64,000 nt of DNA, taken from NCBI RefSeq assembly GCF_011299555.1, contig NZ_CP049857.1:1116001-1180000 (forward strand), given 5' to 3'. Numbering within the stretch: the first letter of the stretch is position 1; every line of letters begins with the position of its first letter. The notes under the pieces are model-generated. The model worked only from the letters and a program-made list of their open reading frames with translations. It had not been told where the DNA came from and ran no database searches. A program made the position numbers and the translations under genes. Below are positions 12,232 to 64,000 of this stretch, one piece after another. This DNA comes from Dysgonomonas sp. HDW5A (lineage in GTDB: Bacteria > Bacteroidota > Bacteroidia > Bacteroidales > Dysgonomonadaceae).

Positions 12232-12322
12232 ATAAATATAGAAAAGAAAAAGTCGCTATATAATAGCGACTTAGTTGTACATTATAGGTAATACCTATTA
12301 ATATTAATTAGTTATCATTTGC
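12232..12322 (+). repeat. Left copy of a 91-bp direct repeat matching the mnmE 3' end (candidate attachment site)
   Basis: Matches 29597-29687 without gaps, 83 of 91 positions by hand count, at a constant offset of 17,365. The right copy contains the last 8 nt of mnmE plus its terminator. Beyond the match, the left copy still shows an 18-nt block that agrees at 13 of 18 positions with the mnmE C-terminal coding end. It contains a hairpin (12250-12272, 10-bp stem) that on the minus strand is followed by U-rich sequence, so it can still work as a terminator. It fits an integration-site remnant. Confidence 0.75.
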
Positions 12323-12542
12323 AACGACACAACAAATACAACTTATATAATATCACTGCTTTAAATTTATGACGGTACAAGCTGATTTATAAGTTCCGTT
12401 TGCATTTTATTCTGTATCGGAAAGTTACGTATTTTTCACCAATTCTCTAAATTTTCATTGATTAGATGAAATATTATGTGGGAAGTGATGAATATATTAT
12501 CCAATATTTCAGCTATCAACAAATATTCAGATTTTAATTTTT

Positions 12543-27393: not shown

Positions 27394-28494
27394 TTATTTC
27401 AAACTTATTTTATTAGCAGATTCTCTTTTCTTCGCATTCACCAAATCAGCGTATATCTGTGTTGTAGACACGTTTTTATGTGTTAGCATCTTGCTTACAG
27501 TATAGATATCAGTACCCAAAGCAACCTGCAAGGTAGCAAAAGTATGGCGAAAACAATGGAATGTGATGTGCTTTGTTATCCCTGCATTGGCTACCCAATC
27601 TTTCAGAGGTTGTTGTGTCATGGACTTTGTCAATCCCTTGAATACTTTACCTTTGCCTCTTTCGCCACATAGTTCCAATGCTTCATCACTAATGGGTAAA
27701 GTAGTTTCGGTTTCCGTCTTTTCGGTTCTTAGTCGCATACAATAACCACCATCGGAAGCAGGAAGTATTTCTTTCCAATCCAACTTTAGCACATCACTTA
27801 TCCGTAAGCCTGTCATACACGAAAATATAGATGCCGATTTCAATATTGGGAAGTCGCAAGGTGTATTGGCTAATGCCTTTAATTCGTCTAAAGTCAGATA
27901 TTCTTTCTTTACATCTGTGGTGTCGATTGAGTCCAGATATTCATTGAGATTCTCTCTGAAAAACTTTTCTCTATATGCTATTTTCAGTAAAGCTCTGAAT
28001 GTAGAAAAATACCCTGACGCTGAATTTTGTGATATGCGAAGGTCTTTGTGCTTCAATTGTTTTGCATCCATCAGATAATCCCGAAAGCGGTTGCAGAGAT
28101 CAACGTTTATATCTCCGAAGGTACATTTACCTTTGACAAAATTGGAAAAGTGCTGATAGACTTTCATCCATTTCTGGTCTTTCTTTTCGGCTTTCAGTTT
28201 GTAATAAGTGAGAAAGTCGGCTTTCTTTTTATTCTTATCCAGAAAACCATATTCCTCATTAATTATTGCCTGTACTCTCATGCTGCGGATGACTTCGGCT
28301 TTCATCAGCATTTCATTATTGTACTCCTTCTCAATTTCGTTGCGTGGTCGTCCATAAATATAGATGCCTAAATATTCCCTTCGTATCATCTTCATCGAAT
28401 GAGGGTCACGAATGGCAGGGTAATAGTCGAGATACAGACTTTTTCTTCCTGCTGTAATATCACGCTGCCGAAGTGCTACTTTGCTTACTCCCAT
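27394..28494 (-). CDS. Tyrosine recombinase/integrase of an integrative element
   Basis: 366 residues. An N-terminal arm-binding domain (residues ~1-90), SAM-like core-binding domain (~93-190) and catalytic domain. The catalytic residues are visible: Arg231 in TGLRISDV, His313 and Arg316 in HCFRHTFA, His339 in LTHKN, and Tyr348 in TTQIYADL. This is the Bacteroidetes integrase type (phage_int_SAM_5). It starts 2 nt after the multi-HTH gene and points away from mnmE, whose 3' end is the putative target. Confidence 0.95.
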   Translation of the reverse strand: MGVSKVALRQRDITAGRKSLYLDYYPAIRDPHSMKMIRREYLGIYIYGRPRNEIEKEYNNEMLMKAEVIRSMRVQAIINEEYGFLDKNKKKADFLTYYKLKAEKKDQKWMKVYQHFSNFVKGKCTFGDINVDLCNRFRDYLMDAKQLKHKDLRISQNSASGYFSTFRALLKIAYREKFFRENLNEYLDSIDTTDVKKEYLTLDELKALANTPCDFPILKSASIFSCMTGLRISDVLKLDWKEILPASDGGYCMRLRTEKTETETTLPISDEALELCGERGKGKVFKGLTKSMTQQPLKDWVANAGITKHITFHCFRHTFATLQVALGTDIYTVSKMLTHKNVSTTQIYADLVNAKKRESANKISLK

Positions 28495-29596: not shown

Positions 29597-29687
29597 ATAA
29601 AAATAGAAAAGAAAAAGTCGCTATAAAATAGCGACTTAGTTATACATTATAAGCAATATCTATTAATGTTGATTAGTTATCATTTGC
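29597..29687 (+). repeat. Right copy of the 91-bp direct repeat at the mnmE 3' end
   Basis: Partner of 12232-12322. It covers the last 8 nt of mnmE (stop at 29680-29682) and the downstream sequence including the mnmE terminator. The exact-match blocks include ATTAGTTATCATTTGC at the gene end and a 23-nt run across the left side of the hairpin. Confidence 0.75.
29606..29637 (-). terminator. Terminator of mnmE
   Basis: On the minus strand AAGTCGCTAT pairs with ATAGCGACTT (10 bp, 3-nt loop, 29637-29615) and is followed by TTTCTTTTC. An equivalent structure is kept in the left repeat at 12250-12272. Confidence 0.85.
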
Positions 29688-31074
29688 CGATACAGAACTT
29701 ACTAAATATATTTCCCAAAATATCATCAGTAGAAATTTGACCTGTTATCTCTCCTAAATAATGCATACACTCACGAATATCCTGAGCCAGAAAATCACTG
29801 GATAAACCGGATTCCATTCCATCCGAAACACGAGTAATTGCAGCCAAAGCATTTTTCAGAGCTTCATAATGGCGCATATTGGTAACAATAACATCCTGCT
29901 CTCCAAATTCAGGAATATTAGCTGCTTCCACTAAAATATCCTGTAGATTTTCTGTACCCTGATGATACTTTGCCGAAATAAAAATTCGATCGGGAATCAA
30001 GTCGCTTAACAATTGCTCCTTATGCTCCTTACGGGCAGCAGGAATTATATCGACTTTATTAAATACCAAGATTAGCTTCTTATCTTCCGTTAGTGGTAAT
30101 ATTTTTTTAGATAAAGCAATAGTACGGTCATCTTCTGTTTCAGCATCAATAACCCAAAGAACTATATTTGCCTGCTCTAACTTCTTAAAAGTACGCTCTA
30201 TACCGAGACTTTCTACAACATCATCTGTATCACGAATACCTGCTGTATCGATTAACCGGAATATAAGCCCATCAATATTTATAGTATCTTCGATTACATC
30301 ACGGGTTGTACCATGAATATCCGAAACAATCGCCTTTTCTTCTCTTAGCAATAGATTAAGTAATGTAGACTTTCCTGCATTCGTCTCCCCTATTATTGCT
30401 ACAGGAATACCCGTTTTTACTACATTCCCTAAAGAAAACGAATCAGCCAATTTTGCTATCACTTCATGAATATGGCTTGCTAATTTTTTTAAATTATCCC
30501 GGTTTGCAAACTCAACATCTTCCTCTGAGAAGTCTAACTCTAATTCTATCAAAGAGGCAAAATTGAGTAAATCAGTACGGAGTTCGACCAGTTTATTACT
30601 GAAACCTCCTCGCATTTGATTCAATGCCAATCGGTGAGTAGCAGCAGAAGTTGAAGCGATAAGATCGGCAACAGATTCAGCCTGTGACAAATCCATCTTT
30701 CCATTCAAAAATGCTCTTTGAGTAAACTCACCTGCACCGGCCAAACGAGCACCTTTCTCTAATAGCAACTGCAAAATCCCCTGTTGTATATATATAGATC
30801 CATGGCATGAGATCTCTACACTATCTTCTCCTGTAAAAGAACTTGGATTATGAAAGACACTAACCAACACCTCATCCAAGGTCGTATTATCTTTCACAAT
30901 AGAACCAAAATGAATTGTATTGGCTTTCTGATCTACTAATTTCTTACCTGATGGAGAACGGTAAACCGCATCAACCAATCCAATACACCCTTTACCCGAT
31001 AAACGAATAACGGCAATCCCTCCTACCCCTGCAGGAGTAGAAATAGCTACAATAATATCCGACTGTTGCATCAT
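29680..31074 (-). CDS. mnmE: tRNA modification GTPase
   Basis: 464 residues. N-terminal tetrahydrofolate-binding domain (TPAGVGGIAVIRLSG; CHGSIYIQQGILQLLL), central helical domain, and an inserted Ras-like G domain with GETNAGKSTLLN, DTAGIRDT and NKVD. The C-terminus ends FCIGK, whose Cys is required for catalysis in the family. With MnmG it modifies U34 of several tRNAs. The reading frame is intact up to the terminal K-stop, so the putative insertion next to it restored the gene end. Confidence 0.97.
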   Translation of the reverse strand: MMQQSDIIVAISTPAGVGGIAVIRLSGKGCIGLVDAVYRSPSGKKLVDQKANTIHFGSIVKDNTTLDEVLVSVFHNPSSFTGEDSVEISCHGSIYIQQGILQLLLEKGARLAGAGEFTQRAFLNGKMDLSQAESVADLIASTSAATHRLALNQMRGGFSNKLVELRTDLLNFASLIELELDFSEEDVEFANRDNLKKLASHIHEVIAKLADSFSLGNVVKTGIPVAIIGETNAGKSTLLNLLLREEKAIVSDIHGTTRDVIEDTINIDGLIFRLIDTAGIRDTDDVVESLGIERTFKKLEQANIVLWVIDAETEDDRTIALSKKILPLTEDKKLILVFNKVDIIPAARKEHKEQLLSDLIPDRIFISAKYHQGTENLQDILVEAANIPEFGEQDVIVTNMRHYEALKNALAAITRVSDGMESGLSSDFLAQDIRECMHYLGEITGQISTDDILGNIFSKFCIGK

Positions 31075-37039: not shown

Positions 37040-37135
37040 TTTAAGTTCGCAGAACTATTTATTGCTTTGGCAAGCAAAACAGCGACAGGTTGTTATACTT
37101 TTAAAATGTATCATTAAATATTTTCTTTTACTTAT
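37040..37135. repeat. Dispersed two-block repeat, copy 1
   Basis: Block 1 (37040-37071) matches 51933-51964 at 31 of 32 positions; block 2 (37109-37135) is identical over 27 nt to 52034-52060. The 37-nt middle is unrelated to the other copy. Block 2 overlaps the stop codon of the hydrolase gene at 37132. Confidence 0.8.
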
Positions 37136-37698
37136 ATTGAAAAATCAAGCATTTTATTTAACTCAACCTCAACTAAGCGAAAATCAAGATATCCATCCCT
37201 ATCAAGGAAATGCTTTCCCTCATCCAGAAGATAGAAATCTGCTTCTAACCGAGATGCCATCTGCTCGGTATATTCGTAAGGAACAATATCATCATCCTTT
37301 GCTGCAATGACAACCCTTTTACACACAAGTCTCTTGACAGCATCACAATCCAACTTGCCCTGCACAAACTCTTGAAGTTGGGGCAAAGGTGTTGAATCGA
37401 TAAAACCCGAAACGAGAATAACGCCTTTTATTTTTTGATTATTCTCTATAATAAATTTGAGGGAAGCTACGCAACCCAAACTATGACCTATAAAAATAGT
37501 ATTTTCATTGATTCCTGTAGTATAATCTCTCAAATGATTCATCCATTTATCCAATTCGGGATTCATAGAATCGGGCATATCTAAAATAGACACTTCGACA
37601 TCAGCAGAATTAAATTGTTCTTTAATCCAAGGAAACCAATGAGATTGAGCCGAAGCTGTGTACCCATGCACTATATATATCTGTGTCTTTTTACTCAT
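37132..37698 (-). CDS. RBBP9/YdeN-type serine hydrolase
   Basis: 188-residue alpha/beta hydrolase. The nucleophile is Ser73 in FIGHSLGCVAS, the acid Asp is in AAKDDDIVPYEY, and the His in DEGKHFLDRDG. The opening YIVHGYTASAQSHWFPWIK is typical for the RBBP9/YdeN family of small serine hydrolases. Substrate unknown. It begins 16 nt after sanA, suggesting an operon nucleoside phosphorylase-sanA-hydrolase. Confidence 0.9.
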   Translation of the reverse strand: MSKKTQIYIVHGYTASAQSHWFPWIKEQFNSADVEVSILDMPDSMNPELDKWMNHLRDYTTGINENTIFIGHSLGCVASLKFIIENNQKIKGVILVSGFIDSTPLPQLQEFVQGKLDCDAVKRLVCKRVVIAAKDDDIVPYEYTEQMASRLEADFYLLDEGKHFLDRDGYLDFRLVEVELNKMLDFSI

Positions 37699-42472: not shown

Positions 42473-42497
42473 ATTGTTCTTATTTAAAACTGTTTTG

Positions 42498-51877: not shown

Positions 51878-51932
51878 TGTTTTTCGTCTTTTATTCGTAT
51901 ACATCAGGAAAATTATATTCCTTTGCAAATCA

Positions 51933-52060
51933 TTTAAGTTCGCAGAACTATTTGTTGCTTTGGCTGTAGGAGTGAACCTGTGTGTTCACCTATTTAAGAC
52001 AGACACACAGGTCTGCCCCTACCAACAATAATATATCATTAAATATTTTCTTTTACTTAT
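51933..52060. repeat. Dispersed two-block repeat, copy 2, interrupted by a REP-like hairpin
   Basis: Block 1 at 51933-51964, block 2 at 52034-52060 (see the copy at 37040). The middle is replaced by a hairpin-forming sequence at 51966-52022. Block 2 ends 8 nt before the methyltransferase start and so forms its leader. Confidence 0.8.
51966..52022. repeat. REP-like palindromic element
   Basis: GTAGGAGTGAACCTGTGTG at the left end faces CACACAGGTCTGCCCCTAC at the right end, a long imperfect inverted repeat with ACCTGTGTGT as its core. Elements of this style (small hairpins with GTAGGGG and CTGTGTG arms) recur in genomes of this group. It lies inside copy 2 of the dispersed repeat and not in copy 1. 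Confidence 0.7.
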
Positions 52061-54277: not shown

Positions 54278-54784
54278 TTACCAATTTGCCATTGTAGCAT
54301 TAAATATCTGGTCTACAATCTCCTTATTCAATTCTTCTACCAATTGAGCCTGTATATTATCCAACATTTCGCTACTGTTGAAGTTCTGATAGGCAGAGAA
54401 TGTCTCCTCTTTATCTTCCTGCGGATTTACATTATTACGAAAACGCATTCTCACTGTCATTGTCAAGCGGGTTTGTGAGGCAAACTGCCCCTCCTGAACA
54501 GCTAAAGCCATAAGATCATAGCCTATTATTTCACCCTCTATTTCTAAATCTGCTCTACCATTATTAACCAATTGCAACTTTGTATTCCGAAGAAATACAT
54601 CCCGCATATGCTCACTGAACATTTGCGATAATGGCGGATAAACCAATCTGGCCTGATTCTGAAAATCCTGAATCTGAATTGTTTTTACTTTACTATAATC
54701 TATCGAAGCTCCATTGAACTGATACGACATACGACATGAAACAGCAATAAACAATATAACTAAACAAGAAATAAGTTTTCTCAT
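54278..54784 (-). CDS. lptE: LptE-like lipoprotein for LPS assembly
   Basis: 168 residues. Lipoprotein signal with Cys17 (LFIAVSC), then YQFNGASIDYSKVKTIQIQDF and a final VDQIFNATMANW, matching the LptE (DUF4136-related/LptE-type) family of Bacteroidetes in layout: an alpha/beta sandwich that plugs LptD. It overlaps the sigma-54 regulator gene by 4 nt. Assignment by pattern and neighbours. Confidence 0.8.
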   Translation of the reverse strand: MRKLISCLVILFIAVSCRMSYQFNGASIDYSKVKTIQIQDFQNQARLVYPPLSQMFSEHMRDVFLRNTKLQLVNNGRADLEIEGEIIGYDLMALAVQEGQFASQTRLTMTVRMRFRNNVNPQEDKEETFSAYQNFNSSEMLDNIQAQLVEELNKEIVDQIFNATMANW

Positions 54785-56055
54785 AAATTTTCTAGATTGT
54801 ATTCTTTAATTTTCCGATATAATGTGCGTTCTGATATTTTAAGATCCTGAGCTGCGTATTTTCGCTTTCCACTATGTCGTTCCAAAGCTTTCTTGATCAT
54901 ATCTTTTTCTACATCCTGAAGTGATACTGCTTCCTCCTCATAATCATTCGAATCTATATCTTCGGCATCCTTTGATATTGGAAGCGATGAAACAGAAGGA
55001 GCATCATTGTATTTGACCGGAACCGTTATATTCGTATTACTATCTTTATCAATTACAGTAAATGCCGATGATGACGGAATTACAGAATCATTATTCAAAT
55101 GTGGTGCATCTTTACCCGAAATTAAATCGTGTACGACTTTTTTCAGCTCATTCATATCCTTTCTCATATCGAAAAGCACCTGATAAAGAATCTCCCTCTC
55201 GCTATTAAATAGCTTCTGATCGGTGGCACCGGCATTGATTGTTCCTATCGGAACTATACCAACCTCATTTGCGGGTAAATATAGTTTCAATATATCCGAA
55301 TTAATCTCTCTTACCTGCTCGATAATAGAAATCTGTTCTGTAATATTTTTCAATTGGCGGATGTTTCCCGGCCATCTGTAATTTTTGAGAACCTCTCGTG
55401 CATCATTAGTTAATGCAATAGAAGGCATTTGATATTTTTCGGCACATTCACTCGCAAATTTCCGAAATAATAATGGAATATCATCCTTGCGCTCGCGTAA
55501 TGCAGGTACACGGATAGGCACAGTATTTAGCCTGTAATACAAATCTTCGCGAAAGCGTCCGTTTGCAGTAGCAGTGACCATATCCAGATTGGTTGCAGCA
55601 ACTACTCTTACATCCGTTTTTTCGACTTTCGAAGAACCTACTTTCATATATTCCCCACTCTCTAAAACACGCAATAAACGAGCCTGCGTCGACAGAGGTA
55701 ACTCCCCTACTTCATCCAGAAAAAGTGTTCCGCCGTTGGCAACTTCAAAGTACCCTTTACGTTCTCCTGTAGCTCCAGTAAAAGATCCTTTCTCATGCCC
55801 GAAAAGCTCTGAATCGATAGTTCCCTCGGGAATCGACCCACAGTTAACAGCAATATAGGTACCATGCTTACGTCGGCTGAATTGGTGGATTATCTGAGGA
55901 AAGCTTTCTTTTCCGACTCCACTTTCACCTGTTACCAGCACAGACATATCTGTTGGAGCAACTTGTAAGGCTATATCAATAGCCCGGTTGAGATCGGGAC
56001 TATTTCCTATAATACCAAATCGTTGCTTTACCTGTTGTATATCGGGTTTTGCCAT
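54781..56055 (-). CDS. Sigma-54-dependent transcriptional activator without a sensor domain
   Basis: 424 residues. AAA+ core with Walker A GESGVGKE (43-50), sigma-54 loop GSFTGA (90-95, Ser replacing Ala of GAFTGA), Walker B LFLDE (111-115). The C-terminus has a Fis-type HTH (GKRKYAAQDLKISERTLYRKIKEYN). The AAA+ domain begins at residue ~12, so there is no receiver or sensing domain. It is the first gene before lptE with ATG overlap, an unusual fusion of regulator and LPS export. A leader hairpin precedes it. Confidence 0.92.
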   Translation of the reverse strand: MAKPDIQQVKQRFGIIGNSPDLNRAIDIALQVAPTDMSVLVTGESGVGKESFPQIIHQFSRRKHGTYIAVNCGSIPEGTIDSELFGHEKGSFTGATGERKGYFEVANGGTLFLDEVGELPLSTQARLLRVLESGEYMKVGSSKVEKTDVRVVAATNLDMVTATANGRFREDLYYRLNTVPIRVPALRERKDDIPLLFRKFASECAEKYQMPSIALTNDAREVLKNYRWPGNIRQLKNITEQISIIEQVREINSDILKLYLPANEVGIVPIGTINAGATDQKLFNSEREILYQVLFDMRKDMNELKKVVHDLISGKDAPHLNNDSVIPSSSAFTVIDKDSNTNITVPVKYNDAPSVSSLPISKDAEDIDSNDYEEEAVSLQDVEKDMIKKALERHSGKRKYAAQDLKISERTLYRKIKEYNLENL

Positions 56056-56071
56056 ATTTTCGTATAATTTG

Positions 56072-56084
56072 AGGTCTCAGACCT
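56072..56084 (-). promoter_or_regulatory. Leader stem-loop of the sigma-54 regulator gene
   Basis: AGGTCT-C-AGACCT, 16 nt before the start. It lies in a 22-nt block identical to the block before susD. Confidence 0.6.
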
Positions 56085-56135
56085 TTTTAGTACTTTGGTT
56101 AGTATAACAGAAACAGATCGTTAGACTGTCGAAAT

Positions 56136-56159
56136 ATCATTAAATACTATCAATTACTT
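56136..56159. repeat. Block-2-like dispersed motif
   Basis: ATCATTAAATACTATCAATT...; similar to the second block of the two-block repeat (37109 and 52034), without block 1. A further copy is at 60352-60375. These are about 80-110 nt before the sigma-54 regulator and nrnA starts. Confidence 0.5.
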
Positions 56160-56250
56160 CATTAGCCAGCTATACTGACAAATTTACATATTTAATTCGA
56201 TCTCGTACAAACGAACCATTAAAAAGAATTTGATGTTCGTGTCATAAAAC

Positions 56251-57087
56251 TTATTCACCCTCCTTAGCCAGAGCATAAGTTTTATCTTTCAAGAAATTCC
56301 CGAGTTCTTCTAAGTCGGTATGCTTTGCAATCTCATCCGGCATAATCGGTTCCCCGAAAACAACACGAATTGTTTTTCCTTTTTTATTATATACTTCATG
56401 TCCTAAACGAAGACTTCTCAATCGCCAGTCAACTAAGTCTAGAAAATTGAAAAACCATGAGTTCTTTCCACTAAAGTACATGGGTATAACTGGTACTTTT
56501 GAGCCTTTTATTAATTTTATAACCGAAGGCTGCCATTCTCTATCGCGAACGATCATTTTCCCTTTCCGTATCTTGGTTTTAGATACTGCTCCGGCGGGGA
56601 AGAAACCTAGCGGATGACCTTCTTTCAGGTGGGTAATACATTGTTTTACACCATCAAGGCTCGATTTACTTGCCAGCTTTCCACTCTGGTAGGGATTAAC
56701 GGCAATAAAGTGCATCGACATAGTATCTATCATTCCCAAGATGAAATTAACCATCATTTTATAATCGGGGCGAATAGAACCTACCACGTCAATAGCTGTA
56801 ATACCATCAATATGACCGTATGCGTGATTAGATACAGTTATAAAAGCCTGATTGTCGAATTGCTTCAAAACCTCAGAGTTTTCAACTACAATATTCACAC
56901 CTACATCTTTTAGGAGATGGTTGCAAAACTCAACCCCTTCATATTGCTTGGATGTATCATAGACCCGATTGACCTTATTTAAGCCCGTCAAACTCATTAC
57001 GAGCTTGATAAGGGTATTGCCAAAACGCCCTCTGAATATAGGATGCATGCTCCGAATTTCGTCTGCACTTATTAGTTTCTCTTTCAT
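56251..57087 (-). CDS. PlsC-like acyltransferase
   Basis: 278 residues. The acyltransferase core shows SNHAYGHIDGIT (a H-x5-D variant of the H-x4-D catalytic motif) and FFPAGAVSK (FPEG-like motif), then VIPMYFSGKNSW. Relatives in Bacteroidetes make glycine or ornithine lipids or phosphatidic acid. It lacks a membrane signal at the start and probably sits on the inner membrane. A leader hairpin lies 17 nt upstream. Which acyl acceptor is used is not determined. Confidence 0.82.
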   Translation of the reverse strand: MKEKLISADEIRSMHPIFRGRFGNTLIKLVMSLTGLNKVNRVYDTSKQYEGVEFCNHLLKDVGVNIVVENSEVLKQFDNQAFITVSNHAYGHIDGITAIDVVGSIRPDYKMMVNFILGMIDTMSMHFIAVNPYQSGKLASKSSLDGVKQCITHLKEGHPLGFFPAGAVSKTKIRKGKMIVRDREWQPSVIKLIKGSKVPVIPMYFSGKNSWFFNFLDLVDWRLRSLRLGHEVYNKKGKTIRVVFGEPIMPDEIAKHTDLEELGNFLKDKTYALAKEGE

Positions 57088-57104
57088 CTGATCTTATTTA
57101 GCCT

Positions 57105-57119
57105 AAGGTCCACGACCTT
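57105..57119 (-). promoter_or_regulatory. Leader stem-loop of the acyltransferase gene
   Basis: AAGGTC-CAC-GACCTT hairpin, 17 nt before the start. Stem sequence differs from the others but position is the same. Confidence 0.55.
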
Positions 57120-57227
57120 GTATTACTGTGGCAAATATAAATATAAATCCTGTTCCTTTCAGACAGAAAAATCGACCTGCATCATTTTGTAATGACACAA
57201 GCCGATTCTATTTCGTTTTTTAAAATT

Positions 57228-58613
57228 CTATTTCGCCAGTGATTTTATAATTTCAATAATCTCAGCCCCTGCGATTTCGGCATCTTCCATAGTAGAAGCT
57301 TCCGAATAGATACGGATAATAGGTTCTGTATTTGATTTTCGCAAATGTACCCATTTGTCCGGAAAGTCTATTTTCACCCCATCGATATCGGTTACATCAT
57401 ACGATGAGAATTTTTCTTTAACCGCTTTCAATATAGCATCTACATCTATCTCAGGAGTTAACTCGATCTTTTGTTTTGCAATATAGTATTCCGGATAAGT
57501 TGCTCGCAACTCACTTACAGTTTTCTTTTCGTGTGCCAAATGTGACAGGAACAATGCAATACCTACCAAAGAGTCACGTCCGTAGTGGCTGGCAGGATAT
57601 ATTATTCCTCCATTGCCTTCGCCTCCAATTACAGCATGGGTTGCTTTCATTTTTGCAGTCACGTTTACCTCTCCTACTGCAGCGGCATTGTACTGCATAC
57701 CGTAACGATTGGTTACATCACGCAATGCACGACTCGAACTTAAATTCGAAACGGTATTACCGGGAGTGTGTTTCAACACATAATCGGCTACAGCTACCAA
57801 TGTATATTCTTCTCCAAACATCTCACCCTTTTCGTCTACGAGCGCTAAACGGTCAACATCGGGATCTACCACGATACCAACATCCGCTTTTCCTGACTTC
57901 ATCAAATCTGAAATTTCAGTCAGATTTTCGGCTAAAGGCTCGGGGTTATGAGCAAAATTGCCTGTAGGCTCACAGTTAAGTTCTATTATATGATTTACAC
58001 CTAAGGCCTTAAGCAACTTAGGCACAACAATTCCTCCTACTGAGTTTACACAATCTATTGCCACTTTAAAATTGGCAGCTTTAATAGCGGCAACATCAAC
58101 CAACTTAAGGTCGAGTACTGCTTTGATATGTGCATCTGAATAATCTTTATTGGTTACTTTTCCGAGATTATCAACATCTGCGAAAATAAATTCTTCAGCC
58201 TCTGCTATTCGAAGTACTTCAGCTCCTTCTTCTGCATTCAAAAACTCTCCGTCTTGGTTAAGCAATTTCAAAGCATTCCATTGACGAGGGTTATGACTTG
58301 CAGTAAGAATGATTCCGCCACAAGCACCTTCCATTGCAGTAGCCAATTCGGTTGTCGGAGTTGTCGCCAACCCTATATTTACAACGTCAAAACCTATTCC
58401 CATAAGAGCTCCAACTACAACTTGTTCCATCATAGCTCCGGAAATGCGGGCATCACGTCCAACAACTATTTTATTACTTTTAGATGTTGTATTTTTCTTA
58501 ATGAAAGTGGCATAAGCCGATACAAATTTAACAGCATCAAGTGGATTCAGTCCTTCGCCCGCAAGTCCACCGATAGTACCTCTGATACCTGAGATTGATT
58601 TTATTAATGCCAT
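57228..58613 (-). CDS. glmM: Phosphoglucosamine mutase/phosphohexomutase family
   Basis: 461 residues. Active-site phosphoserine loop ILTASHNPRQWN, metal-binding loop DPDVDRLAL, sugar loop GGEGNGGIIYP, and C-terminal phosphate site RKSNTEPIIRIYSEA. Domain order is complete. The likely reaction is GlcN-6-P to GlcN-1-P for cell wall and LPS precursors. The family is shared with phosphomannomutase; the GEGNGG loop fits GlmM. Confidence 0.92.
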   Translation of the reverse strand: MALIKSISGIRGTIGGLAGEGLNPLDAVKFVSAYATFIKKNTTSKSNKIVVGRDARISGAMMEQVVVGALMGIGFDVVNIGLATTPTTELATAMEGACGGIILTASHNPRQWNALKLLNQDGEFLNAEEGAEVLRIAEAEEFIFADVDNLGKVTNKDYSDAHIKAVLDLKLVDVAAIKAANFKVAIDCVNSVGGIVVPKLLKALGVNHIIELNCEPTGNFAHNPEPLAENLTEISDLMKSGKADVGIVVDPDVDRLALVDEKGEMFGEEYTLVAVADYVLKHTPGNTVSNLSSSRALRDVTNRYGMQYNAAAVGEVNVTAKMKATHAVIGGEGNGGIIYPASHYGRDSLVGIALFLSHLAHEKKTVSELRATYPEYYIAKQKIELTPEIDVDAILKAVKEKFSSYDVTDIDGVKIDFPDKWVHLRKSNTEPIIRIYSEASTMEDAEIAGAEIIEIIKSLAK

Positions 58614-58636
58614 AGCAATAAATACTTTATAGATTA

Positions 58637-59215
58637 TTAGTTAATAATTCGTGTATAATGTAATTCGGGGTAATACGCAGGTGTAAATGTATTCAATTGG
58701 TAATTAGAGCCACTTGCAAAAGGTACTATCAAACTGACTCTTGCATTTTCTCCCACATACTGCAAAGGAGCAGTTATACCTGTAGACAGTGAAAAATAAT
58801 CAAGAGTTGCGTCATTAGAGTTACTATAAGTAGCAACAATACCATATGTAAATGAAATTGGCTGAGAAGAATTAGCATCCAAATTACCACGAAGTGTATC
58901 TGAGGGCAAAAAAATGGTATTCGCAAGTCGGACATTCACTTCCGAGCGTTTCGAAACACTGGCTCTCTTTCCATTACCTGAATCAATTACATTTATATAA
59001 ACACCTGTTAATGGATCTCTAAAGTATTCATTTTCTTTAAAAACGCCACTGGCAGGATATTGATTCAAAACAACAATATTATGTTCATTGATAAAACGGC
59101 TAATATTTTTACGCTCATTCTTCAATTTATCTGCATATGTTTCACTACTGCTACATGCAGCAAAGACAACGCATAAAACGATAATAAAACAAATCAGTCC
59201 TAATACTTTTCTCAT
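58637..59215 (-). CDS. DUF4827 lipoprotein
   Basis: 192 residues. Lipoprotein signal ending FAAC followed by SSSETYADKLKNERKNISRFI. DUF4827 domain of the FKBP-like type (VYINVIDSG, then GIVATYSNSN). Conserved in Bacteroidales beside NrnA; likely an envelope-associated peptidyl-prolyl-type or chaperone protein, not proven. It overlaps nrnA by 4 nt. Confidence 0.85.
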   Translation of the reverse strand: MRKVLGLICFIIVLCVVFAACSSSETYADKLKNERKNISRFINEHNIVVLNQYPASGVFKENEYFRDPLTGVYINVIDSGNGKRASVSKRSEVNVRLANTIFLPSDTLRGNLDANSSQPISFTYGIVATYSNSNDATLDYFSLSTGITAPLQYVGENARVSLIVPFASGSNYQLNTFTPAYYPELHYTRIIN

Positions 59216-60264
59216 TTTTTCTCTAGATTATTTTTATTATTTATCAATAAATCGGCATATTCTGGAAGAGTATTTTCAAAAAGTGCCATTGCCTCCACTA
59301 ATGAACCATAGAATTCACCACCCGAAGCATTCAGATGACCTCCTCCATTGAAACATTGTGCAGAAAATGTATTACAGGGAAAATCGCCTTGCGAACGAAG
59401 TGATATTTTTATCATACCATCGTCTTCTCTCATAAATACGGCAAAGGTTACGCCTCTTATATTCAGAGGTAAATTAGCAAAGCCTTCGGTATCTCCTTTC
59501 TGCGAGTTGAATCTCTTCTGATCGTCATTATCCAACCAGATCAAACCGGCTCCGTACTCTTCATATATTTTCATACGCTCCGACAGCATGTGACCCATCA
59601 TACGATATCGGTCAGCCGTATAACTATGGTATACTTTAGAGTATATATAATCTTTGTCTATGCCTTTATTTAAAAGCTGAGCAATGATATAATATATTTG
59701 CGAATCGTTTGAGTTATATGTAAATGCACCTGTATCGGTCATCATTCCCATATAGATGGCCTCTGCCGAGTCTTTACTCATCATTTCAAAATCTCCCATG
59801 CGGCAGATCAATCTGAAAACAAGTTCGCTCGTAGACGATATTTCGGGATGAGAAATACAAACATCACTAAAATCCGATGGGTATGGGTGATGATCAATCA
59901 ACACCTTTTTCGCTTTAGATTCTTCAACCGCCAGTCCGACATTCTTAATGCGGCTCAAGACATTAAAGTCTAAACAGAAAATAAGATCAGTTTCACTGAT
60001 TAGCTTTTCTGCAAAGTCGGGATATTTCTCATAAATAAGAATATCTTTCGAACCCTTTAACCATTTTAGAAAATACGGAAACTCATTAGGTACGATTATA
60101 GTAGCATCCAGACCCTGATCGATCAGATAATGATATAATCCTAAAGAAGAACCAATAGCATCGCCGTCGGGAGAAACATGAGTCACAATAACAGCTTTGT
60201 CCGCTTTATCAATTAGGTCAGCTACTTTAGTTATCTTATCCTGATCTATTATTTTTGTAAACAT
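59212..60264 (-). CDS. nrnA: DHH-type oligoribonuclease/pAp phosphatase
   Basis: 350 residues. DHH motifs HVSPDGDAIGSS and LIDHHPYPSDF, then ICRMGDFEM..., MGMMTDTGAF; the C-terminal DHHA1 domain ends NGGGHLNASGGEF. It degrades short RNA oligonucleotides and 3'-phosphoadenosine-5'-phosphate in the cytosol. Forms an operon with the DUF4827 gene. A hairpin lies 22 nt before its start. Confidence 0.93.
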   Translation of the reverse strand: MFTKIIDQDKITKVADLIDKADKAVIVTHVSPDGDAIGSSLGLYHYLIDQGLDATIIVPNEFPYFLKWLKGSKDILIYEKYPDFAEKLISETDLIFCLDFNVLSRIKNVGLAVEESKAKKVLIDHHPYPSDFSDVCISHPEISSTSELVFRLICRMGDFEMMSKDSAEAIYMGMMTDTGAFTYNSNDSQIYYIIAQLLNKGIDKDYIYSKVYHSYTADRYRMMGHMLSERMKIYEEYGAGLIWLDNDDQKRFNSQKGDTEGFANLPLNIRGVTFAVFMREDDGMIKISLRSQGDFPCNTFSAQCFNGGGHLNASGGEFYGSLVEAMALFENTLPEYADLLINNKNNLEKK

Positions 60265-60286
60265 TCTAAGTAAAATAAATATATTA

Positions 60287-60299
60287 AGCTCTGTGAGCT
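60287..60299 (-). promoter_or_regulatory. Leader stem-loop of nrnA
   Basis: AGCTC-TGT-GAGCT hairpin 22 nt before the start, next to an A-run on its 5' side in the message. Confidence 0.5.
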
Positions 60300-60471
60300 A
60301 TTTTTTGCCGGGGTAAACAAAAGTCGAAAAGAGTGTTATCCATAGAAAACAATCATTAAATACTTTCAGTTACTTTAAATAGACAATTGTAACAAACAGT
60401 GTTTACTACAATCATTTAATAGCAAATCGGTCATATGACCTTAGTTAAAATACAATCGTACAAAAATACTA

Positions 60472-60544
60472 AAAAAATATCCGTAAAACCCCATTACCTC
60501 AACATCGTAATAGAGAATTCGCAATTTTTCACATTCTAAGACAA
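60472..60544. repeat. Decayed duplicate of the comEC 3' end
   Basis: Aligns with 61487-61560 (the last codons of comEC) at about 64 of 74 positions with one 1-nt gap by hand count. Translated on the minus strand it reads CEKLRILYYDVE before a frame change and no longer contains a gene. Confidence 0.75.
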
Positions 60545-60623
60545 TTGCATCTACTTAAATTATTTATAGCCAGATACTACTTTATTCTAAGGAAATCAAT
60601 CATTTTTTAATCTTGCAATAATA

Positions 60624-60654
60624 TTGATACTTTGGCTTTTTTATTATATGTTTG
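60624..60654 (+). promoter_or_regulatory. Promoter of the crystallin-like gene
   Basis: TATGTTTG (60647-60654; consensus TAnnTTTG) with TTG 20 nt upstream (60624-60626). The gene starts 39 nt later. Confidence 0.6.
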
Positions 60655-60693
60655 TAGTTCATTGTATTTTTAACAAACTATTAACAAACTATT

Positions 60694-61422
60694 ATGAAGA
60701 AAAAAAAACTACTATTTTTTTATGTATTAAGTCTGCTATTTACAGTTTCATGTTCAAATGAAGATCTAGATTTAGGGAAAAATGAGTCAAAGGATATTGA
60801 TAAGAACGGATCAATTGAGTTTATCTATAAAGGTAAATTATATTCTTCAACATACTTTTCAACCCAAGACTCTCTAATTATCCTAAATGACAAGATTGCG
60901 AATGAAGTGTATCGCAACTTAGGATTAAATCCAGCCTTAGCAGTTGTTATTAATGAGGATGGGGTTCTAACTTATTATGACAGTTATGATGAAATCCCCT
61001 CTTATACCTCAACACAAACTAATCTAAGAAGCACTTATGTTCCAACTTCTTTTACTGTAGATCTTTTTGAAGACTCAAGTTATAATGGAAAAAGAATAAG
61101 CTTTACGATTGACAAAAATAATACAAAAGTTTATATTCCTTCCCTAAGAGCATATGGTATGAATGATAAAATATCATCATTAAAATATAGACTTGCTCGC
61201 ACTTACTCGACAGAACCACCTAGATATCCATTCCCCTTCAACATTCAATTTACCTTGTTTGAGCACGATAACTATGAAGGTAAATCTATCACTTTTGCAT
61301 CTACAAAATTATACACAAGTGACACAGATCGTGAGGATACAGTTAGACGCCTTAAAGAAGTCTCTTTTGGTTCTGGCAAAAACTGGAATGATGTGGCTAG
61401 TTCGGTAATAATTGGACAATAA
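60694..61422 (+). CDS. Beta-gamma crystallin-like lipoprotein
   Basis: 242 residues. Lipoprotein signal with Cys20 (LFTVSC-SNED). Two beta-gamma crystallin motifs fill the second half: residues ~120-166 (LFEDSSYNGKRISF ... NDKISSLK) and ~184-242 (LFEHDNYEGKSITF ... NDVASSV). Both retain the Ca2+-binding [ND][ND]xx[ST]S loop. Probably a surface Ca2+-binding stability domain. The 100 residues before them are a beta-rich linker (VINEDGVLTYYDSYDEI). It is placed between a partial copy of comEC's end and comEC itself. Confidence 0.85.
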   Translation: MKKKKLLFFYVLSLLFTVSCSNEDLDLGKNESKDIDKNGSIEFIYKGKLYSSTYFSTQDSLIILNDKIANEVYRNLGLNPALAVVINEDGVLTYYDSYDEIPSYTSTQTNLRSTYVPTSFTVDLFEDSSYNGKRISFTIDKNNTKVYIPSLRAYGMNDKISSLKYRLARTYSTEPPRYPFPFNIQFTLFEHDNYEGKSITFASTKLYTSDTDREDTVRRLKEVSFGSGKNWNDVASSVIIGQ

Positions 61423-61436
61423 AATACATATTATAT

Positions 61437-61477
61437 TATAAATAAAGCCAAGCAGTAAATGTTTGGCTTTATTTATA
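61437..61477. terminator. Terminator between the crystallin-like gene and comEC
   Basis: A 15-bp perfect stem (TATAAATAAAGCCAA with its complement). Its right arm overlaps the comEC stop codon at 61469-61471. Confidence 0.85.
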
Positions 61478-63439
61478 ATTCTCATTAAAAAATATCCGTA
61501 AAACTCCATTATCCGATACATCGTAATAAGGAATTCGTAATTTTTCACATTCTAACACAAATCTTTGGAGAGTTTTCTTTGACAAAGAACCGTCAAGAAT
61601 AACTTTATCTATTTCAAACACCTGATTAAGAGAATATAATGACAATGAATTATTCTCAACTAAATGAAGATAATCAACTTTCATTTTTTGATTAGGAGAT
61701 CTCCCTTTCCATGTATCGTTTGTTACTATCAGGTATTTTGATCCCTTTAACCAGATAAGCGTATTGTTTTTCACTTCGGTTATTTCCTCCTTATGATATC
61801 CTATTTGATATATAACTTGTGTTGACTCCGGTCTGTTATAAACCACCAATGTATCTTTATTTTTGATAATCGTACGGAAATTCACACCTATAAAAACAAA
61901 AATACAGACCAATGATACAATCAGAACCTTGGGCTTCTTTTTTAAAAGAAAGGACATAAGTGATATAATAATTAACCATAGCAGAACCAAACCTACCGTA
62001 GACGGTTTTAGATTCTGTAGCGAAGCGTATGGTAAATTCTCGAAAAATGAAGAAGTGGAAGTTGCTGCTTTTACCAATATTTTAAATAAGCCAATCGGCA
62101 AATACTGAAGATATGTAGCAACGGCAGGTAGAAAAACTCCTACCCCCTGTAAGAAAACGATAACAATTGCATCGTACAGAGCCAATGTTATCAGTGGAAT
62201 AATAATCAAATTAGTTATGAAAAAATAAACAGGAAACGTACCGAAGTAATATAAGCACAGCGGAAATATACCTATCTGCACGGATAAGGATACATTGAAT
62301 ATATCACGGAAATATCTTACATACCTATTTTTTACAGGCATTGCATCCGACAAAACAGGCATAAGAAGGAGCATAGATAATACGGCAAGAAAACTCAACT
62401 GGAAACCCATATCAAACAACCACAGAGGATTCCAGACAAGCATAAGAAAAGCCGTCATAAATAAAGTATTATAAGAATAGCTCTTGCTTCCGAACAATGC
62501 AGCAACACAGAGGGCAGTAAGCATAAGACAAGCCCGAAGTGCCGAAGGCGGAAAACCGATGACAAACACATAGATCCAGAGTAAAAGAATAATAATGATT
62601 TGCTTTATCCAATTGTATTTTGAGTGACGGTGTACAAAACTCAACAAAGAAGAAATAACTACAAAAATAATTCCCACGTGCATTCCACTGACTGCCAGAA
62701 TATGTGCGACACCCGTAGTCCTAAAAGACTCTACAGTCTCATCAGACAAGGCATCTGTATATCCTAATGTGAGAGCCGAAAGCATACCATATTCTTCCGT
62801 AGTCAGACCTAACGATTTATATAATTGAAGTATATATTGCCTACTTTGTGCTGCCTTAATAAATAAATCGGAATTGGACACTTGTTCTTTCTGCCACCTG
62901 TCTGATCTGACGAATGTCATCCCCGAATAGCCTTTATTATACATATAACGGGCGTAGTCAAATTCATCGGGATTACCTCTATTTTTGAAAGCTTGTATTT
63001 GAGAAAAGAAAGTAAAGGTATCTCCCTCTTTTAAATCTTCTAAATTATCCTCTTTCGAAAAATAACAAACAATCTGCTTATTGAAATCTTTTAGTTTAAC
63101 CTTGTAAGTATACGAGCTTGGTTTTTCCTGAGGTATATCGACAACAGTGGCTGTATAGGTTTCACTGACATCAGGAAATGTAAAGGCTGACATTTGCTGC
63201 CTGAGCATAGTCGAAACAATTCCTACACCTAACAACATAAAACAAACGCCATACCCAAATCGGAATTGGTGACCTAATATTTTAGACTTTGGAACAAAAT
63301 ACGAAAAGAGTATAATACCGAGTCCTAAGACAATCGGAATTATACTCCATTTTCCTATATGGTAATAATATTGAATTACAATACCTAAAAGAAGAGGTAA
63401 CAACAGTCTAAAAAACGGAGCTTTCGTAATTTTCTCCAT
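61469..63439 (-). CDS. comEC: ComEC/Rec2-family competence channel protein
   Basis: 656 residues with an N-terminal membrane part and DUF4131-type domain (residues ~30-200), then the Competence domain with the hallmark SGMHVGIIFVVISSLL, PSALRACLMLTALCVAAL and WLFDMGFQLSFLAVLS. The C-terminal ~130 residues form a beta-rich soluble region but lack the HxHxDH metallo-beta-lactamase motif found in Firmicute ComEC. Possibly a DNA-uptake channel. The 3' end is duplicated at 60472. It is 21 nt downstream of rpe on the same strand. Confidence 0.92.
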   Translation of the reverse strand: MEKITKAPFFRLLLPLLLGIVIQYYYHIGKWSIIPIVLGLGIILFSYFVPKSKILGHQFRFGYGVCFMLLGVGIVSTMLRQQMSAFTFPDVSETYTATVVDIPQEKPSSYTYKVKLKDFNKQIVCYFSKEDNLEDLKEGDTFTFFSQIQAFKNRGNPDEFDYARYMYNKGYSGMTFVRSDRWQKEQVSNSDLFIKAAQSRQYILQLYKSLGLTTEEYGMLSALTLGYTDALSDETVESFRTTGVAHILAVSGMHVGIIFVVISSLLSFVHRHSKYNWIKQIIIILLLWIYVFVIGFPPSALRACLMLTALCVAALFGSKSYSYNTLFMTAFLMLVWNPLWLFDMGFQLSFLAVLSMLLLMPVLSDAMPVKNRYVRYFRDIFNVSLSVQIGIFPLCLYYFGTFPVYFFITNLIIIPLITLALYDAIVIVFLQGVGVFLPAVATYLQYLPIGLFKILVKAATSTSSFFENLPYASLQNLKPSTVGLVLLWLIIISLMSFLLKKKPKVLIVSLVCIFVFIGVNFRTIIKNKDTLVVYNRPESTQVIYQIGYHKEEITEVKNNTLIWLKGSKYLIVTNDTWKGRSPNQKMKVDYLHLVENNSLSLYSLNQVFEIDKVILDGSLSKKTLQRFVLECEKLRIPYYDVSDNGVLRIFFNENYK

Positions 63440-63460
63440 ACCTCAACTTATTGATGCACC

Positions 63461-64000
63461 TTATAAATTTTTCAATTCATGGATCATCTGAGTAGGATTC
63501 GGTGCCGAAAAGACTGCATTACCTGCGACAAGAACATCGGCTCCTGCATCGAGTAAGCGTTTACCTGTTTCAAGATTCACACCTCCGTCTACTTCTATGA
63601 GAGTAGAGAGATTGCGCTCTTGTATCATTTTTTTTAAACGCGATACCTTAGATAAGGATCGTTCAATAAACCTTTGTCCTCCAAATCCCGGATTAACAGA
63701 CATGATCAGAACCATATCTAAATCCTCGAGAATATCTTCCAGAAATTCAACCGGTGTATGTGGATTTAGCGTTACTCCCGCTTTCATCCCTGCATCATGG
63801 ATAGCTCCTACTGTACGGTGAAGGTGTGTACACGCTTCATAATGCACAGTCATCATATAAGCATTTATATCTTTTACCTGCTGAATAAATTTTTCGGGTT
63901 GCACAATCATCAAATGCACATCCAGAGGTTTCTTGGCTATTTCTTTAACACGTTCCAATACCGGAAAACCAAAAGATATGTTAGGAACAAACACTCCATC
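63461..64000 (-). CDS. rpe: Ribulose-phosphate 3-epimerase, partial
   Basis: About 180 codons to the window edge without start. Begins inside the family's DGVFVPNISFG metal-loop segment and contains LDVHLMIVQPEKF, VHYEACTHLHRT, VLIMSVNPGFGGQRF and LIEVDGGVNLETGKRL, the characteristic rpe motifs. Interconverts ribulose-5-P and xylulose-5-P in the pentose-phosphate pathway. The 5' end lies beyond position 64000. Confidence 0.95.
   Translation of the reverse strand, partial: DGVFVPNISFGFPVLERVKEIAKKPLDVHLMIVQPEKFIQQVKDINAYMMTVHYEACTHLHRTVGAIHDAGMKAGVTLNPHTPVEFLEDILEDLDMVLIMSVNPGFGGQRFIERSLSKVSRLKKMIQERNLSTLIEVDGGVNLETGKRLLDAGADVLVAGNAVFSAPNPTQMIHELKNL

Follow-up and report, generated by a model that had tools for sequence, protein, structure and literature searches.

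The window analysed here is a 64,000-nt stretch of the Dysgonomonas sp. HDW5A genome (G000:C1:1116001-1180000), a genome assembled as a single contig of 4,298,355 bases. Two of its minus-strand genes concern us: comEC (61469-63439), an ORF encoding a 656 amino acid protein with Pfam matches to Competence (E 1.1e-56) and DUF4131, and nrnA (59212-60264), the gene that follows comEC in relatives, which encodes a 350 amino acid DHH/DHHA1 protein. Between them, on the plus strand and convergent with comEC, lies a gene (60694-61422) for a 242 amino acid lipoprotein with a beta-gamma-crystallin-like C-terminal part. The sequence TATGTTTG (60647-60654, plus strand) may be the promoter of this gene, as it fits TAnnTTTG, a Flavobacterium -7 consensus (PMC9723704). 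A hairpin between the convergent genes (61435-61479), with arms that are 95% complementary and folds scoring z -7.4 on the plus strand and -5.8 on the minus strand, is a possible bidirectional terminator, although it is missing from the output of the terminator scan.

Two copies of the comEC 3′ end

The lipoprotein gene is flanked by two copies of the comEC 3′ end, both on the minus strand. The inner copy (61487-61560, 74 nt) is in frame and forms the working end of comEC, whilst the outer copy (60472-60544, 73 nt), on the nrnA side, has lost the frame through one deleted base. The initial annotation put the match between 60472-60544 and the end of comEC at about 64 of 74 positions; we count 65 identical columns out of 74, the remainder being eight substitutions and the single-base deletion, with a local alignment score of 101 against best scores of 26 and 28 for the same 74-mer elsewhere on the two strands of the window. 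Searching the whole genome with a 160-nt comEC-end query returned these two sites at E <0.1, followed by two others at E 0.17 and 0.32. The repeat stops 18 nt short of the end of the current comEC stop codon, and those 18 nt (61469-61486, minus strand) encode a new tail, N E N Y K plus stop, recognised from the sequence and from comparison with congeners. Set by the repeats, the limits of the inserted DNA are 60545-61486 (942 nt).

Comparison with relatives identifies which copy is native. In the five congeners (G001-G005) comEC ends in ...RIFF-stop, or ...RIFFY-stop in the case of G002, and a single comEC end lies directly before nrnA in all five, as had been predicted should the comEC-nrnA intervals of relatives be compared. 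Past the shared segment, the DNA reads TAGTATTTTTGC in four congeners and TACTAATTTTGC in G002. The outer copy in the window is followed by TAGTATTTTTGTACGATTGTATTTTAACTAAGG, which is of the same kind as the congener native spacer, whereas the inner copy runs into DNA dissimilar to that spacer and adds NENYK and a stop; no continuation of the inner copy into native spacer was seen. Since native downstream sequence lies behind the outer copy only, the outer copy is the original comEC end in its native place, and the insert sits between that place and the current comEC end. The inner copy differs from the G001 sequence at two positions and from the outer copy at nine.

The wider sample is in keeping with this. 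ComEC was matched in 60 of 61 genomes (our own included), and junctions were counted at 30 loci among these 60, of which 29 come from relatives. In 28 of the 29, comEC and nrnA are adjacent, share a strand and are separated by about 33-122 nt; at the remaining locus (L014, genome G019) another gene, lpxA-like by our reading, adjoins comEC. The closest named relatives by comEC, Dysgonomonas alginatilytica DSM 100214 (L034) and Dysgonomonas sp. HGC4 (L035), are 74-75% identical. When 101 family genomes were searched with the 160-nt comEC-end DNA, a search that is insensitive beyond the genus, G000 alone gave a second strong match (E 3.7e-19); below 1e-4 there was one other match, in G069, where the query had hit the genome's own comEC end ahead of nrnA. 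The single end in five of five congeners, together with adjacency in 28 of 29 relatives, establishes that the insertion is real and makes it look lineage-specific, which bears out the original proposal that the intervening 1 kb or so was inserted with duplication of the gene end.

Whether the duplication reaches further upstream than the 73 nt was assessed at four lengths, with p = 0.034, 0.164, 0.010 and 0.004 against L034, p = 0.052-0.28 against L035 and p = 0.43-0.82 against the inner sequence.

The inserted lipoprotein gene

The cargo is probably a beta-gamma-crystallin-type lipoprotein, a reading for which the individual signals are weak but consistent. A cysteine at position 20, within what we read as a lipobox, is invariant in 13 family members. 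The protein matches Pfam Inhibitor_I36 (E 1.8e-5, 25 bits against a cut-off of 21.1) and, over a short stretch, a clostrillin profile (E 1.1e-5); no NCBIfam match exceeds that database's cut-offs. A fold search with a structural model (pLDDT 73.6) returned crystallins as 18 of the best 19 hits, with a best E of 1.7e-3, none below 0.001, and low TM-scores. The C-terminal part thus resembles, in both profile and fold, the superfamily that includes clostrillin, spherulin 3a, the lens crystallins and Pfam I36, but unlike those proteins the cargo is a lipoprotein with an additional N-terminal module. It also contains the stretches NDKISS and NDVASS, of a type associated with calcium binding, and a calcium-dependent or adhesive role at the cell surface may be envisaged. 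A narrow literature search found nothing on beta-gamma-crystallin lipoproteins in Bacteroidetes.

Members of the cargo family share a common N-terminal module of roughly 100 residues followed by varied C-termini. There are four matches in the genome itself, and 11 of the 101 family genomes have one or more; the cargo is 30-38% identical to its own paralogues and at most 37% identical to proteins from other family genomes. In the order sample, three of 393 genomes match, our own included, the others at 25-29%. Three congener homologues are not beside comEC. Across L036-L042 and L073-L078 the C-termini appear exchangeable, most being crystallin-like and that of L076 lectin-like by our reading.

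Searched as DNA against the six genus genomes, the insert found no long match other than itself, and no donor of the cargo was found in its own genome, the 101 family genomes or the order sample of 393. The cargo protein was likewise unmatched in 50,697 phage and 72,556 plasmid records, and none of 30 viral stretches with a short pattern match encodes a relative of it. We infer an outside origin for the cargo. No gene-end repeat comparable to that of comEC was seen at the three paralogues or the three congener homologues, in flanks reaching 1.5 kb on either side at most, and less at L038. At L038 itself a 21-nt AT-rich direct repeat (86%) lies on both sides of the lipoprotein gene, at 93-113 and 1299-1319, probably by chance.

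A probable second signal in the comEC end

Synonymous positions are unusually conserved in the final 25 native codons of comEC. In the six genus genomes (G000-G005), 239 of 305 same-residue codon pairs are identical (78%), whereas 602 comEC windows not overlapping these codons have a mean of 45% (sd 6%, maximum 62.5%) and an nrnA control has a mean of 47% (maximum 58%). No other stretch of comEC is as strongly conserved at synonymous sites in the genus, and the conservation continues into a box that fits TAnnTTTG behind the comEC stop in all five congeners and in the window. Outside the genus the rise is only mild, with 55% for the comEC end against 41% in six genomes from other genera, a point against the explanation favoured below. 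Conservation beyond the protein that runs into TAnnTTTG behind the stop points to a function at the level of nucleotides, and on the strength of these synonymous sites the comEC-end segment probably carries a second signal in the genus. In Flavobacterium, sigma-A promoters have TAnnTTTG as their -7 box (PMC9723704). Given this correspondence, the nrnA promoter is the simplest candidate, although this is a guess. In the window, the native TAG stop and its -7-like box TATTTTTG (60461-60468) occupy 60461-60471 on the minus strand, on the nrnA side of the outer copy, where they may still serve as promoter sequence. A narrow literature search for such an overlap gave no match.

Differences between the inner and outer copies fall at two of 49 congener-invariant columns but at seven of 25 variable columns (p=0.006); with a 6-nt stretch round the deletion excluded, the counts are one and four and the bias is weaker (p=0.024). 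Compared with the congener majority, the outer copy departs at two of 49 invariant and nine of 25 variable columns, and the coding inner copy at none of 49 and five of 25, a similar bias. Two readings fit these counts alike: selection acting on the outer copy as DNA, or a start of the two copies as two functional alleles, one from donor and one from recipient. The initial annotation had the outer copy decaying. This is right in that the frame is broken, but the differences avoid congener-invariant columns, the nrnA promoter-like box is kept and the copy is the original end with its original spacer.

The same insertion could nonetheless have left an outer copy that is functionless and decaying, with the nrnA promoter elsewhere, for instance within the longer spacer. 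Loss of the frame, changes at nine of 74 columns and the presence of an extra dispersed repeat in the nrnA leader would all be in keeping with this; however, differences at invariant columns are few and the segment's synonymous sites are strongly conserved across the genus, both of which argue the other way, and we regard this reading as rather unlikely, though the best placed of the alternatives.

The extra repeat in question (60284-60378, minus strand) is a copy of a dispersed element of ~96 bp, TTAAGTA...TATTTAATG...hairpin...ACTTAA, and is apparently not part of the insertion event. The window also has copies at 37041-37136 and 56068-56161 (minus strand). Those near 42493 and at 51932-52060 are diverged or interrupted; the last is broken by other palindromic sequence (GTAGGGGCAGACC...) that may be a second small mobile repeat. 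L034 and L035, whose comEC-nrnA spacers are shorter, show no copy of the element there. By a model built from 18 copies, the E-values of which are rough, G000, G001 and G004 each have at least 150 copies, G005 has 124 and G003 has 65; none was found in G002, a genome that is 62% complete. With stricter filters it was present in nine of 61 genomes (our own included) from three genera. Its terminal hairpin is small, with two-sided changes in one of four pairs. That the repeat is a fixed gene leader was rejected: among 38 copies, a gene start follows 14 in the sense orientation and nine in antisense, 10 lie behind a convergent gene and three behind a same-strand gene, these categories overlapping. 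The element looks REP- or MITE-like, and Rfam at gathering thresholds has no match in the window, the repeat included.

Origin of the insertion

Overall, the explanation that we favour, at a probability of roughly 60%, is an insertion accompanied by a duplication that split two jobs of the comEC end. Beforehand, the last 73-74 nt of the gene would have specified the C-terminus of ComEC and, at the nucleotide level, a signal that most likely belongs to the nrnA promoter region. In the lineage of this genome, 942 nt that include one complete lipoprotein gene were then inserted between comEC and nrnA, and the 73-74 nt at the end of comEC were duplicated with them. Since then ComEC has ended in the inner copy, extended by five codons and a stop codon that the insert supplied, whilst the outer copy, with the native stop and spacer behind it, would still feed nrnA, its frame lost but its conserved nucleotides mostly kept. 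On our preferred view the insertion was retained because the dual-use segment was duplicated and both jobs were preserved. As a first guess, the segment may have arrived by illegitimate or short-homology recombination of incoming DNA. The initial annotation inferred a recombination that used the comEC end, for which neither a donor nor a nearby recombinase was found.

A gene-end repeat that flanks an insert, with the native end distal, is also a feature of integration by tyrosine recombinases, and it is present here. Integration at the 3′ ends of protein-coding genes is exemplified by SGI1 at trmE/mnmE and by phage 21/e14 at icd. PAISt is reported to be integrated at the bacA 3′ end (PMC4057263). 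Like these islands and prophages, the comEC insert has a duplicated gene end round it, a new end on the gene body and the native end distal; unlike them, it is 0.9 kb long with a single cargo gene, has no recombinase that we could find nearby and leaves the native stop unrestored. The window itself offers a comparison at the mnmE 3′ end, where a 102-nt repeat (87%; 12232-12333 and 29597-29698) bounds a 17-kb island with a tyrosine recombinase/integrase at 27394-28494. The initial annotation had likened the two cases in style. The mnmE case, however, is of the classical integrase kind, and the comEC case departs from it in two features, the recombinase and the restored stop.

Could the comEC insert be the remnant of a tyrosine recombinase element, the inner and outer copies being attL and attR, that supplied comEC with a substitute end before losing its integrase? 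The layout fits gene-end integration, with a new end beside the gene body, the native end distal and an imperfect repeat, and the mnmE repeat with its integrase occurs in the same window. Against this, a Pfam scan found no recombinase among the eight main ORFs of 54781-63994, in agreement with the earlier statement that the locus has no integrase; in place of the native stop, the inner copy reads into NENYK-stop; a strict comEC-end pattern is unmatched in viral contigs, a weak negative; and the family-wide comEC-end search, with its low sensitivity outside the genus, gave no second strong match outside G000. We consider such an origin improbable.

The favoured history has a parallel in homology-facilitated illegitimate recombination, in which foreign genes are added beside a conserved stretch and the old sequence can stay displaced downstream (PMC3240628, PMC5361080). 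The comEC locus resembles this in that a gene was added beside a conserved stretch and old sequence was displaced downstream; it differs from the process so described in that anchor and donor were not found and in that the repeat ends sharply and seems to survive as promoter sequence rather than as a gene.

That the insert is ancestral and was lost from relatives through recombination between the repeats is highly improbable. Direct repeats of 73 nt can in principle lose the DNA between them, but this would have to have happened in each of the five congeners and in the 28 of 29 relatives where the two genes adjoin; and the divergence between the copies is about 12% of columns, yet comEC of the window and of G001 agree at only 44% of fourfold sites.

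The divergence from G001 (dS estimates of 1.4 and 2.0) also bears on the age of the insertion. If the outer copy has been neutral, the age of the event is a small fraction of the time since the split from G001; if it has been constrained, the event could be older.

At its simplest, then, the locus is a case of gene gain of an ordinary kind, neatly resolved at the junction: a small, polarised example in which the native copy is identified and for which there is a testable reason why the gene end was duplicated. It also led us to a high-copy dispersed repeat of the genus that is without an Rfam match in the window. More tentatively, and with somewhat less than even confidence, we propose that the comEC 3′ end is in dual use throughout the genus, as coding sequence and as nrnA promoter, such that insertions are normally barred, and that this insert survived by duplicating the whole segment, leaving the outer copy as a pure promoter under selection. 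If this is true, a duplicated gene end round an insert would often be there because selection on overlapping signals preserved it, and would not be the mark of an integrase; should the dual-use reading hold more widely, a duplicated gene end need not imply an integrase.
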